From a virus: a stretch of 59,980 bases of DNA. The position numbers were made by a program, and so were the translations under genes. The notes under the pieces are model-generated. The model ran no database searches. It was not told where the DNA came from and saw only the letters and a list, made by a program, of their open reading frames with translations. The first letter of the stretch is position 1. Each line of letters starts with the position of its first letter. The stretch lies in the IMG/VR virus record IMGVR_UViG_3300017781_000005, positions 1 through 59,980 of that record. The stretch is one strand, 5' to 3'. Shown in pieces: positions 55,238-58,966 of this stretch.

Positions 55238-55999
55238 ATGTCATTTAACATAGCAGACTTTAACTCAAAATTATCGCAACATGGTGGATTATCTAAAAGT
55301 AATCTATTCTTTGCTCGAATAAACATACCTCAAGCACTAATCAATGAGTTTGTAGATATACCTGTATCAAGAGATTTAGAATTTTTCTGTAAGAGTGTTA
55401 CTTTACCTGGATTCGACCTTGAAACGGCTGATGTTCAGCCTCAGGGATTTGGACCAGTTGTTCGTAGACCCCAAGGAATGAACTTTCCTGTAATGCCGTG
55501 TATCTTTTTTGTAGACTCAAATTTTGGCATTATGAAGTTCTTTCACAGATGGATGCAAGCAGTCGTAAACTACGATAGAAGTGGCGGTAACTTCGGAGCA
55601 GTAAACGGAGCATTACCATTCGAGATGGGCTACAAGAGCGAATATGCTACTACAATGGATGTTGCAGTATTCTCTCAAAATTCAAGAAGAGTTGAATATG
55701 TGTATAATTTCTCGGGCTTATATCCAGTAAATACAGGAACACAAGAGACTGATTGGTCAACTCAAGGCGAAGTTATGACTATGGCTGTAGGTTTCTCTTA
55801 TGATCAATTAAAGGTTACTGGTTCTGAATCAGGCAAAGTTGAATCAGAAAACGGATCAACAGCAGGCAGAATGCTCAGATGGTTCAACACTATTAACCAA
55901 ACAGTGAATGCGATAGAAGCGTTCAGAAAACCAACTGATATTCAAGATTCAATTAATAACCTACAGACAGTGAACACAATATATAATTCATTTAAATAA
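55238..55999 (+). CDS. 54: Baseplate tail-tube initiator gp54-like
   Basis: 253 aa (T4 gp54: 320). It has the gp19/tube fold: SNLFFARINIP, LEFFCKSVTLPGFDLETADV, NFPVMPCIFFVDSNFGIMKF, FHRWMQAVVNYDR, then VEYVYNFSGLYPVNTG. The helix FHRWMQAV corresponds to EEWMASIN of gp19 in this window. The C-terminal tail (about 195-253) is helical. It would form the second tube ring on gp48 and start gp19 polymerisation. gp48 on the opposite strand takes the cap role. AGGA precedes the ATG. A duplicate tube protein is the main alternative. Confidence 0.78.
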   Translation: MSFNIADFNSKLSQHGGLSKSNLFFARINIPQALINEFVDIPVSRDLEFFCKSVTLPGFDLETADVQPQGFGPVVRRPQGMNFPVMPCIFFVDSNFGIMKFFHRWMQAVVNYDRSGGNFGAVNGALPFEMGYKSEYATTMDVAVFSQNSRRVEYVYNFSGLYPVNTGTQETDWSTQGEVMTMAVGFSYDQLKVTGSESGKVESENGSTAGRMLRWFNTINQTVNAIEAFRKPTDIQDSINNLQTVNTIYNSFK

Positions 56000-56022: not shown

Positions 56023-56754
56023 ATGGCATTACCGAAGATAGACCTTCCTTTATTCGAGGTCAAATTATATTCAACGGGTGAGACAGTACAATATAGACCT
56101 TTTACAGTAAAGGAAGAAAAGGTCTTACTAATGGCTCAAGAATCTGGCGATAATAAGCAAATGATTCTGGCAATGAAACAGATTGCAGGAAATTGTTGCC
56201 CAAATATTGATATTGAAAGCATACCGATGTTTGATCTTGAATATTTGATGTTGCAGTTAAGATCAAAATCTGTGAACAATGAGATTACTTTTACTGTTCA
56301 AGATGAAGAGACTCAACAGCCGGTTGAGTTAACGCTTGATGTAGATAATATTAAGGTACATATTCCTGAAGATCATAGCAAGAAAATTGATGTATCAGAT
56401 AATGTGTATCTAATGATGAGATATCCTACACTAGAAGAAGTAGGAATGTTTCTTGAGTTAGTTAACTTAGATGGCACCGAAGAAGAAAACAATGAGAAGG
56501 CTGCCGATATTCTCTACGGAGTTATGATCTCTTGTATAGACAGTGTAGTGAATGGTGATGAAGTAGAAAAACTAAGCGAGTATACTCCAGAAGAAATACA
56601 AGAATTTGTTGATACTCTGCCTGGCGGCACTATCGAATCGTTGAAGAAATTCTTTGAGACTGTGCCTCAATTAAAATATGAAGCAAAGTATACCAACTCT
56701 GCAGGCAATGAGAAGACGATAAAACTAGAGGGAACTGAAACTTTTTTTCTCTAA
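56023..56754 (+). CDS. 26: Baseplate hub assembly chaperone gp26
   Basis: 243 aa (T4 gp26: 208). Conserved features are IDLPLFEVKLYSTGETVQYR, then PFTVKEEKVLLMAQES, and LRSKSVNNEITFTVQDEE; the middle to C-terminus is acidic and helical. gp26 is required for hub assembly and resembles the G-type tail assembly chaperones of other phages. The ORF ends at TAA 56752-56754. Seven T at 56742-56748 lie exactly in the T-TTT-TTT phase just before the stop. A -1 slip there joins it to the next ORF as a 299-aa fusion. AGGAG precedes the ATG. Confidence 0.85.
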   Translation: MALPKIDLPLFEVKLYSTGETVQYRPFTVKEEKVLLMAQESGDNKQMILAMKQIAGNCCPNIDIESIPMFDLEYLMLQLRSKSVNNEITFTVQDEETQQPVELTLDVDNIKVHIPEDHSKKIDVSDNVYLMMRYPTLEEVGMFLELVNLDGTEEENNEKAADILYGVMISCIDSVVNGDEVEKLSEYTPEEIQEFVDTLPGGTIESLKKFFETVPQLKYEAKYTNSAGNEKTIKLEGTETFFL

Positions 56755-56813
56755 TGTTGAGTCATATTAGTCTGGGAGCGTACTATAAATTGATGTTCTC
56801 AATGGCTCAACAT
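56742..56813 (+). promoter_or_regulatory. Programmed -1 ribosomal frameshift signal
   Basis: The slippery heptamer T TTT TTT (56742-56748) is in frame with gp26. Five bases later an 8-bp perfect stem begins: ATGTTGAG (56754-56761) pairs with CTCAACAT (56806-56813). It encloses a smaller hairpin, ATTGA/TCAAT (56789-56803). Slippery site, spacer and structure match canonical -1 frameshifting. The downstream ORF is in the -1 frame. Confidence 0.75.
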
Positions 56814-56921
56814 CATAAATACAGTATAAGCGACTTAGAAAATATTTTGCCTTTTGAGAGAGATTTATACGCTGAAATGTTAGTCGAGTTCATTGATGAG
56901 CAAAGTAAAAAACAACAATAA
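56754..56921 (+). CDS. 51: gp51-like T-domain of the tail assembly chaperone
   Basis: A 55-aa ORF whose ATG overlaps the gp26 stop (TAATG). It begins LSHISLGAYYKLMFSMAQHH and carries SDLENILPFERDLYAEML near residues 26-43. The LPFER-type segment is typical of the T-domain that -1 frameshifting adds to tail chaperones. It lies in the -1 frame relative to gp26, so it can be made as a fusion or alone by coupled initiation. In T4, gp51 follows gp26 and is a hub-assembly catalyst, hence the name. It would recruit or fold the tape measure encoded downstream. Confidence 0.75.
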   Translation: MLSHISLGAYYKLMFSMAQHHKYSISDLENILPFERDLYAEMLVEFIDEQSKKQQ

Positions 56922-56929
56922 CGGAGTAA

Positions 56930-57259
56930 ATGATGAGTGAAGAAACAAAAGCAGAAGTGTTTCACCCTGCTGATACAAACGGTGATGGAAAGGTGTCTAA
57001 AGACGAAGAGCAGTTATATCTTGAGTTTAGGCGCAAAGAATTAGAAGATGCAGATGCTATGCGTGATGCACAGCGCAACATGACATGGTTTGCTCTTGGT
57101 GGTTTGTTGTTATACCCATTCGCTGTTGTTCTAGCATCTCTTGTAGGTCTAGATCAAGCACAGAAAACATTAGGCGATATGGCACCAACATACTTTGTTG
57201 CTGTTGCTGGTATCGTAGCCGCATTCTTTGGCACACAGAACTTCGGCAAGAAGAAATAG
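56930..57259 (+). CDS. EF-hand, two-span membrane protein
   Basis: 109 aa. A canonical calcium-binding EF-hand loop DTNGDGKVSKDE is at residues 15-26 (D1, N3, D5, E12 all present). A charged helix follows, then membrane spans at about 52-73 (WFALGGLLLYPFAVVLASL) and 85-102 (APTYFVAVAGIVAAFFG), ending NFGKKK. Similar proteins occur in marine T4-like phages without a known role. The size, two spans and basic tail fit a holin-like topology, with calcium as a possible gate; that is inference. ATG 56930 or 56933 may be used; GGAG lies 5 bases before the first. Lies between the chaperones and the tape measure. Confidence 0.82.
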   Translation: MMSEETKAEVFHPADTNGDGKVSKDEEQLYLEFRRKELEDADAMRDAQRNMTWFALGGLLLYPFAVVLASLVGLDQAQKTLGDMAPTYFVAVAGIVAAFFGTQNFGKKK

Positions 57260-57268
57260 GAGTAGATT

Positions 57269-57388
57269 ATGGAAGCACCACTAGAAGCATGGAATAACTT
57301 ATCATATTTCGATGGTATAATGTTCACAGTTTGGTTGGGCATATTGTACTACGGAAAGAATTTAATCGATCAATGGTTCGGAAAATAA
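57269..57388 (+). CDS. Small single-span membrane protein (39 aa)
   Basis: 39 aa. AGGAG lies 7 bases before the ATG. The product begins MEAPLEAWNNLSYFDG, has one hydrophobic segment (IMFTVWLGILYY, about residues 17-28) and ends in the amphipathic KNLIDQWFGK. It is 9 bases after the EF-hand membrane gene and 6 before the next gene, so the three are cotranscribed. It may partner the EF-hand protein, like a holin/antiholin or spanin-like pair, but nothing in the sequence proves this. Confidence 0.72.
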   Translation: MEAPLEAWNNLSYFDGIMFTVWLGILYYGKNLIDQWFGK

Positions 57389-57394
57389 AAACAA

Positions 57395-58966
57395 ATGGCT
57401 GATAGAGACCCCGCAACAGAAGAAGCCCGTCATCAAGAGATGATGGCCCTTTTAGGTGCCATAGGCACTACTATGGCCGAACAAACTGGCGTTCTAACGG
57501 ATATCAAAACGGATCAAAGCGAAGCTAACGAAGATGATGAAGAAGCAAGAAAAAAAGCCGCTCGTGATGCTAAGAAAGAGAGCGTAACTGAAGAAGATGG
57601 CAAGAAAGGATCAGGATTATTTGCCGGAGTTAAGGGTGCTGTAGCCGCCGAGGGTGGCAAACTGAAGATGGCCAAGAAGCTAGGAATAGCGGCCGCATTG
57701 CTACCATTCCTTGACGGATTTCTTGGTAGCATGATTGATGACATCAAAGAATCTCTTTTCCCAAGTAGTGATCCTGACGGCAAAAAAGATCAAAAATCAT
57801 TAATAGAAAGAAGCGTAGGTAAAGGTGGACTGTTTGCCCTAATCGGTGGGTTCATTAACAAGAGACTTATAATACCTGGTTTCTTCATGGGTGTCTTTAA
57901 TGAAGTATTCAAAGACATGGAGAACAATAAGTATCTCGAAAAGACTGGACTAACTCCGGAACAGCAAAAGTCCCTAGGTCTGGCAATGTCTGGTGCTTTA
58001 GGTCTTGCAGTTCCTAGACTAGTTACAAAGACTGTACCTGGATTAGTCAGAAGTACTGTACAAGGAGCGAATCAATTTGGTCAAGCGGCTGCCGCTCAGA
58101 GGGCATTAACAACAAATGCCGCAACAGGAGTTACTGGTCAAGCAGGTAGAACAGTTCCAACTGGAATGAGAGTAAACAGTGCTGGTAGAGTTGTTAACGC
58201 AACTACAGGAAGATTTACCTCTGTTGCTGATCTTGAAAAAGCAATGAAGGCTCAAAAGAGAGCGGCAAAATTAGCAAAATATGCTAAGTTCTTTAAATTC
58301 TTGAAAGGTGGAGCATTAGCAATCTTACCATCTTTATTCGATGTAGCGATGGCAATCTATAATGATGCACCAGAAGATGAAGTTAAGAAACAGTTGTCTG
58401 GAGTTCTAGGTGCCGCAGGTGGCTTTGCTATTGGTGCATTAGGTGGTAGCGCATTAGGTACTGCTATATTCCCTGGAGTTGGTAGTGCAATTGGATTGTT
58501 CTTAGGTGGTACTGCAGGTGCTCTAGGCGGTGAAAAACTTATTGAGATGATTACTGGTTCTTTACTAAGTGGTCAAGACCTTGATGCAGATAAATTTAAA
58601 GGAAATGCTGGAGCAAAAAGAAGAGCGCAAAGACAGGCTGCGAAAAATAGAGCCAAAGGAATAACTCCTGATCAAGCGATGGGACAACTAGATGCTTTGG
58701 CCGCTAAATCGACTGGTACTACAGGAACTCCTAATATTACACCAGCCGCAGAAGCTGGTCTAGAAGCACAAACAGAAAAAATGACAACTCCTTCAGGTGG
58801 ATTTATCGATTCTTCAATGCAGAATATGATCAATAATGCACTCGTTGGTGGCAATACAAACAATCAAACAAATGTTGGTGGATCAAGTACTACATTTAAC
58901 ATAGTAAACGGTTCTAATAGTTCACTAAGTAACGCACCGCATTTACCTGTTCCTCAAGGCTTCTAA
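57395..58966 (+). CDS. Candidate tape measure protein (gp29-like)
   Basis: 523 aa (T4 gp29: 590). An acidic helical N-terminus (1-70) is followed by hydrophobic helices (about 93-112, 144-170, 190-210, 300-325). A Gly-zipper stretch spans 335-380 (GVLGAAGGFAIGALGGSALG). A basic segment (405-425) leads to a Ser/Asn-rich C-terminus ending HLPVPQGF. Tape measures set tail length and enter the host membrane on ejection, and hydrophobic Gly-rich parts fit that. It follows the frameshifting tail chaperones, as tape measures do in most tailed phages. Function comes from position and composition. No strong ribosome site is seen. Confidence 0.65.
   Translation: MADRDPATEEARHQEMMALLGAIGTTMAEQTGVLTDIKTDQSEANEDDEEARKKAARDAKKESVTEEDGKKGSGLFAGVKGAVAAEGGKLKMAKKLGIAAALLPFLDGFLGSMIDDIKESLFPSSDPDGKKDQKSLIERSVGKGGLFALIGGFINKRLIIPGFFMGVFNEVFKDMENNKYLEKTGLTPEQQKSLGLAMSGALGLAVPRLVTKTVPGLVRSTVQGANQFGQAAAAQRALTTNAATGVTGQAGRTVPTGMRVNSAGRVVNATTGRFTSVADLEKAMKAQKRAAKLAKYAKFFKFLKGGALAILPSLFDVAMAIYNDAPEDEVKKQLSGVLGAAGGFAIGALGGSALGTAIFPGVGSAIGLFLGGTAGALGGEKLIEMITGSLLSGQDLDADKFKGNAGAKRRAQRQAAKNRAKGITPDQAMGQLDALAAKSTGTTGTPNITPAAEAGLEAQTEKMTTPSGGFIDSSMQNMINNALVGGNTNNQTNVGGSSTTFNIVNGSNSSLSNAPHLPVPQGF

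Follow-up and report, generated by a model that had tools for sequence, protein, structure and literature searches.

The IMG/VR virus fragment analysed here, a stretch of 59,980 bases referred to throughout as the window, carries near its right end a gp26-like gene whose stop codon overlaps the start of a 55-aa gp51-like frame. The question raised by this locus is whether gp51 is made there as a separate protein or as an extension of gp26. The original prediction was that a -1 frameshift fuses the two, and the analysis described below supports that reading: gp26 and the gp51-like frame are very probably a single recoded gene for a tail assembly chaperone of the lambda G/GT type, expressed by -1 frameshifting.

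Gene neighbourhood of gp26

The plus-strand cluster at the right end of the window comprises genes for head closure, a nuclease, a DNA end protector and a tail-tube-like protein, followed by gp26, the 55-aa gp51-like frame, two small ORFs and a tape-measure candidate. The genes and frames around the gp26 end are as follows.

55238..55999, + strand, tail-tube-like gene upstream of gp26 (PF23849 Phage_TTP_2, E 4.9e-6; phrog_45 tail tube, E 4e-35)
56023..56754, + strand, gp26-like short form, 243 aa, the putative 'G'-like N domain of a tail assembly chaperone (PF12322, E 1.6e-53; phrog_150, E 6e-58)
56748..56921, + strand, gp51-like, 'T'-like C domain, the -1 frame extension of gp26 (phrog_634 'baseplate hub assembly catalyst', E 2e-20)
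56754..56921, + strand, 55-aa gp51-like ORF, its ATG at 56754 overlapping the gp26 stop (TAATG)
57395..58966, + strand, tape-measure protein candidate, 523 aa, 27% Gly+Ala (weak matches to PHROGs 23574, 794 and 167, 2.5e-5 to 3e-3)

The C-domain extension was matched by profile to the C-terminus of T4-type gp51. With the tail tube upstream and the tape-measure candidate downstream of gp26 and the C domain, the gene position tested is the one occupied by lambda G/GT. A tape-measure candidate had been predicted downstream, and a gene in the right place was found; its PHROG matches are weak, and its assignment as a tape measure is suggested by these matches together with its position. In phage Cr30 a tape-measure annotation is carried by a nearby downstream gene. 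Between the C domain and this candidate lie two small ORFs: one, of 109 aa (56930-57259), shows hydrophobic stretches as well as a motif resembling an EF hand, and the other, of 39 aa (57269-57388), matches phrog_9048 (E 5e-11).

An AlphaFold2 model of gp26 (mean pLDDT 88) was compared with the PDB by Foldseek. The top probabilities among the 50 matches listed were not significant and belonged to 3FGX (probability 0.13, E 1.8) and 2OB9 (0.12, E 1.4), both of them chaperones (PMC9603447) and the second being HK97 gp13, so that homology of gp26 to solved chaperones is only hinted at by the model. T4-type gp51 gave no significant Foldseek match to solved chaperones in the PDB, a search of PDB sequences with the gp26 and T4-type gp51 profiles found no phage protein, and the NCBIfam search returned no match.

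The slippery heptamer and its conservation

Three elements of a possible frameshift signal were located around the gp26 stop.

56727..56733, + strand, Shine-Dalgarno-like AGAGGGA, with 9 nt from GAGGG to the heptamer and 21 nt to the ATG at 56754
56742..56748, + strand, slippery heptamer T TTT TTT, seven T in the NNX XXY YYZ phase of gp26
56754..56765, + strand, 5' arm of a downstream stem (folding; covariation in 53 sequences)
56773..56801, + strand, inner hairpin enclosed by the stem, of a shape that differs between relatives
56802..56813, + strand, 3' arm of the stem (folding; covariation)

The 3' codons of gp26 are ACT TTT TTT CTC TAA, with the stop at 56752-56754; as predicted, the seven T stand in exact X-XXY-YYZ phase two codons before this stop. 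After the heptamer the -1 frame reads TCT CTA ATG TTG AGT and continues to a stop at 56919-56921, and the part of it that begins at ATG 56754 is the 55-aa ORF of the original prediction. The predicted fusion would be about 300 aa long with the junction ...ETFF-SL-MLSH.... As a control for chance, the ATG ORFs of at least 100 aa in the window were found to contain five in-phase TTTTTTY heptamers in total, only that at 56742-56748 being near a stop and followed by a long -1 extension.

Two sets of relatives were examined: 80 viral contigs with a gp26 of 100-44% identity, and a wider set of 96 uncultured loci with <80% mutual identity, for which cyanophage-, pf16- and Cr30-like seeds were added (the KVP40 and Cr30 seeds retrieved only two viral contigs each). 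In 80/80 contigs of the first set T TTT TTY stands at exactly -10 relative to the stop of gp26, and the -1 frame is open. In all 96 loci of the second, T TTT TTT/C is in the 0-frame NNX XXY YYZ phase and a -1 frame overlaps it; the offset from the gp26 stop is -10 in 88, -13 in 2 and -31 in 6, and the -1 extension after the heptamer was 52-66 aa long in the relatives. Loss of the heptamer or of the phase in close relatives, named in advance as evidence against frameshifting, was therefore not seen. In the six loci at -31 (L216, L231, L243, L246, L254 and L258) the zero-frame stop comes seven codons later, which gives a short form with a longer tail and leaves heptamer and phase intact.

The Phe-Phe pair encoded by the heptamer is invariant in gp26, and the T run might be kept by this protein constraint only, with the conserved LSH and AQH peptides keeping the stem and nothing being recoded. 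The choice of codons speaks against this. The XXY codon is TTT, and never TTC, in 96/96 loci, whereas the other Phe codons of gp26 are 772 TTT and 344 TTC (69% vs ~31%); the resulting P = 4e-16 assumes independence and is optimistic in view of shared descent, and such conservation probabilities are guides only because the sequences are related. The codon before XXY likewise ends in T in 96/96 loci, although it may encode Thr, Ser, Asp or Asn. Among the 96, no relative was found that combined TTC at XXY with an intact C-domain frame. At YYZ both TTT and TTC occur (54:36 in 90 relatives), and the slippage rule permits either.

The T run also raised the possibility of transcriptional slippage, in which the polymerase drops or adds a U and the fusion arises by ordinary translation of the changed mRNA. 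A seven-T run is present in the window and bacterial slippage is known on runs of 9 A or T (PMC5009743), but 36/90 relatives have the even shorter run of T6C, on account of which this explanation was disfavoured; moreover, the NNT TTT TTY codon phase and the covarying stem 5 nt downstream fit the needs of the ribosome and not those of the polymerase. It is accordingly given very little probability.

The downstream stem

Folding of the window confirmed the perfect 8-bp stem that had been noticed 5 bases past the heptamer, with a second hairpin inside it, and extended it: the eight Watson-Crick pairs continue into a U-G pair and a further three pairs, for a total of 12. The minimum free energy is -23.9 kcal/mol (z = -4.9), which none of 200 shuffles matched or beat. 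Covariation was scored for an 11-pair stem in a gapless alignment of 53 loci <90% identical. Of the cells of this alignment 92.6% are paired, and 39 show a double change, against 17.3 +/- 2.9 after shuffling (0/500) and 1-11 in slid controls. A structure within 5-9 nt of the heptamer is thus found in the window and, by covariation, in the 53 relatives.

The clearest covariation links a Leu codon of the 5' arm (TTR/CTR) to a Gln codon of the 3' arm (CAA/CAG), with counts of 30/1/3/19 and a Fisher p = 2.4e-10 that, for related sequences, is no strict probability. Both arms encode conserved peptides, as expected if the protein alone were under constraint, but the Leu-Gln exchanges are synonymous on both sides. 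Phe-Phe constraint was rejected as the sole explanation because of the codon statistics given above, and protein constraint as the only cause of T run and stem is regarded as highly improbable.

Different stems occur near the same place in the distant cultured phages P-SSM2 (z -3.6), pf16 (-4.6), Astolliot (-3.6) and Melnitz-3 (-3.4), while folding found no significant downstream structure in 65.2, S13, VmeM-32, RHph_I1_9 and KVP40. The heptamer is therefore more general than a stem of the window type.

Start codons and the Shine-Dalgarno-like element

The TAATG overlap allows another reading, namely translational coupling, by which ribosomes that have terminated at TAA would reinitiate at the ATG overlapping it and give a separate 55-aa gp51, the T run being incidental. 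In the window, the ATG at 56754 could indeed also yield separate gp51; the same codon is ATG in 24/53 relatives, and gp51 is annotated separately in databases. In the other 29/53, however, this codon is ACG, GTG or GCG. Near the junction 26/53 have no ATG, and 8/53 (21/90 in the wider set) have no ATG, GTG or TTG within the first eight codons. Where the junction is without a usual start codon the C domain is, by ordinary rules, reachable only as a fusion. The sole Shine-Dalgarno-like element cannot serve the ATG at 56754 because it lies 21 nt away, too far for initiation. Coupling also leaves the invariant TTT codon and the covarying stem unexplained, and in T4 the C domain is covalently fused. 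Separate initiation of gp51 was rejected as a general mechanism since so many relatives have no start codon, and coupling is judged quite unlikely.

The position of the Shine-Dalgarno-like element is conserved relative to the heptamer. Pairing with the anti-Shine-Dalgarno sequence peaks 15-17 nt before the heptamer (mean -6.9 kcal/mol, the strongest of the region in 53 loci); the best site has an offset of -15 to -17 in 91/96 loci and reaches -4 kcal/mol or lower in 89/96. The Glu codon within the element is GAG in 28/45 cases, against 30.5% elsewhere (p = 1e-5). As an upstream Shine-Dalgarno sequence is an established frameshift stimulator in dnaX (PMC5009743), the element, by analogy, probably stimulates frameshifting here too.

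Cultured phages and T4

The same junction was inspected in 17 distant non-T4-type cultured T4-like phages and in T4-type phages. The heptamer is in phase in 15/17 of the former (KVP40, Bellamy, pf16, phiM19, P-SSM2, Astolliot, Ah1, 65.2, YB07, S13, RHph_I1_9, VmeM-32, Cr30, Melnitz-3 and C48C1). The full X XXY YYZ heptamer is missing in the Vibrio phages Kuja (L103, 3170-3196) and K364 (L105, 3200-3226), which have CTTTTT at the end of gp26, so that all non-T4-type relatives examined keep heptamer and phase except these two Ackermann-like phages (Kuja belongs to Ackermannviridae). Both retain a -1 C-domain frame of 60-63 codons. The suggestion that gp51 is made mainly as a fusion was put forward for the marine branch; the frameshift arrangement is not restricted to marine phages, being shared by phages of Sinorhizobium, Caulobacter, Pseudomonas, Stenotrophomonas, Aeromonas and Cronobacter.

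The in-phase heptamer is absent from the T4-type phages Stupor, AS-gz and RB43, and the 3' end of T4 gp26 (GAG TTC TTT GAG) encodes Phe-Phe without a slippery site. T4 gp51 contains the whole of PF12322 in aa 1-201 (E 3.9e-52) and phrog_634 in aa 147-246 (E 1.2e-23). T4 gp51 is therefore a paralogue of gp26 with the C domain attached, and T4 thus encodes both forms as separate genes; a PF12322 domain followed by a phrog_634 C domain is found in either case, by frameshift or in a fusion gene. The relation of gp26 to gp51 rests on these Pfam matches and not on profile-profile comparison, in which gp26 and a nine-member alignment of T4-type gp51 were colinear with a weak score (probability 7%, E 0.005). 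Genes 26 and 51 are divergent in T4. In RB43 (L112:2501-3794), unlike T4, the two genes are in tandem on one strand, 51 immediately upstream of 26 and overlapping it by 8 bases.

Residues 32-141 of T4 gp26 (gene 26, L081:5803-6429) weakly match the gp28 family phrog_1140 (E 9e-4). Judging from this match gp28 (T4 gene 28, L081:8349-8882) may be a third paralogue; the Stupor record calls gp28 a tape-measure chaperone as well, and one phage record labels gp26, gp51 and gp28 alike 'tape measure protein assembly chaperone'.

Assembly of T4 depends on gp51, yet the finished particle does not contain it (PMC3004832), which is how a chaperone would behave. Gene order, the short/long design and this absence from virions point to a chaperone role like that of lambda G/GT. 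The proposal that gp26 and gp51 are a G/GT pair is likewise supported by gene order, by the domain fusion in T4 gp51 and by the start-less C domain of many relatives. It was reported earlier that cyanophage and vibriophage gp51 are without the first ~200 residues (Sullivan 2010, PMC3037559), and the database record for KVP40 states a likeness to the T4 gp51 C-terminus.

Proposed mode of expression

Under the frameshift reading most ribosomes would terminate at the gp26 stop and give the short form, while a fraction would slip by -1 at T TTT TTT and produce the fusion of the gp26 domain with the C domain. Slippage would be aided by the stem 5 nt downstream and probably by the Shine-Dalgarno-like element 9 nt upstream. 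If the two forms act as gpG and gpGT do in lambda, the tape-measure protein would be coated by the short form, and the few copies of the long form would recruit tail-tube subunits. In T4-type phages recoding would have been replaced by two genes, 26 for the short form and 51 for the gp26 paralogue carrying the C domain. Against the proposal counts the fact that in E. coli U UUU UUU by itself promotes shifting only weakly (PMC5009743).

A broader version is put forward tentatively, as somewhat short of an even chance: outside the T4-type branch the gp51 domain would exist only as a frameshift fusion, made through a dnaX-like three-part cassette (Shine-Dalgarno-like element, T TTT TTY and covarying stem) at a rate above that of lambda G/GT, and the T4 'hub assembly catalyst' gp51 would be a duplication that froze the fusion into a gene of its own.

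These results are an argument for treating gp26/gp51 as a single recoded gene for a tail assembly chaperone when records are annotated, which concerns hundreds of entries, those of cyanophages among them. The cassette is a compact candidate frameshift signal that is directly testable.

Comparison with known systems

The central idea was published in 2022, and the gain of the present analysis therefore lies in confirmation, breadth and the anatomy of the signal. The abstract of that study, by Vladimirov and colleagues, reportedly agrees with what citing papers say of T4-like chaperones. According to its title and these papers, tail assembly chaperone genes, TAC-N and TAC-NC, were identified there in T4-like phages (Vladimirov, Gautam & Davidson 2022, Virology 566:9-15). 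Poly-T -1 frameshift sites in T4-like TAC-N genes are credited to it by PMC12846349, and T4-like phages that do without frameshifting and carry a short and a long gene by PMC10885494. The window fits the TAC-N/TAC-NC kind and is an uncultured relative seemingly outside the set studied in 2022. Judged from the title and the citing papers, what is added here is the covarying stem, the Shine-Dalgarno-like element and the breadth, together with a way to account for the 'short gp51' that Sullivan 2010 described. A 2016 review had described G-T frameshifting as widely conserved 'except T4' (PMC5009743).

In lambda gpG/gpGT and P2 E/E+E', whose products are not in the virion (PMC5009743), a C-terminal domain is gained by a -1 shift towards the 3' end of a gene that lies between those for the tail tube and the tape measure, and the same would happen in the window. 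Its heptamer T TTT TTT differs from that of lambda; no sequence similarity to the lambda and P2 proteins was found, and the fold similarity is not significant. The tail assembly chaperones of Vandenendeviridae and Andersonviridae share with the window the conserved -1 frame, the T-run motif at the end of TAC-N and the location upstream of the tape measure, but these are different families and have GTTTTT in place of T TTT TTY (PMC12846349). The -1 cassette of E. coli dnaX belongs to a different gene, not homologous to that of the window, and uses the heptamer A AAA AAG, yet it has the same three parts in the same order, an upstream Shine-Dalgarno sequence, a heptamer and a downstream stem (PMC5009743).
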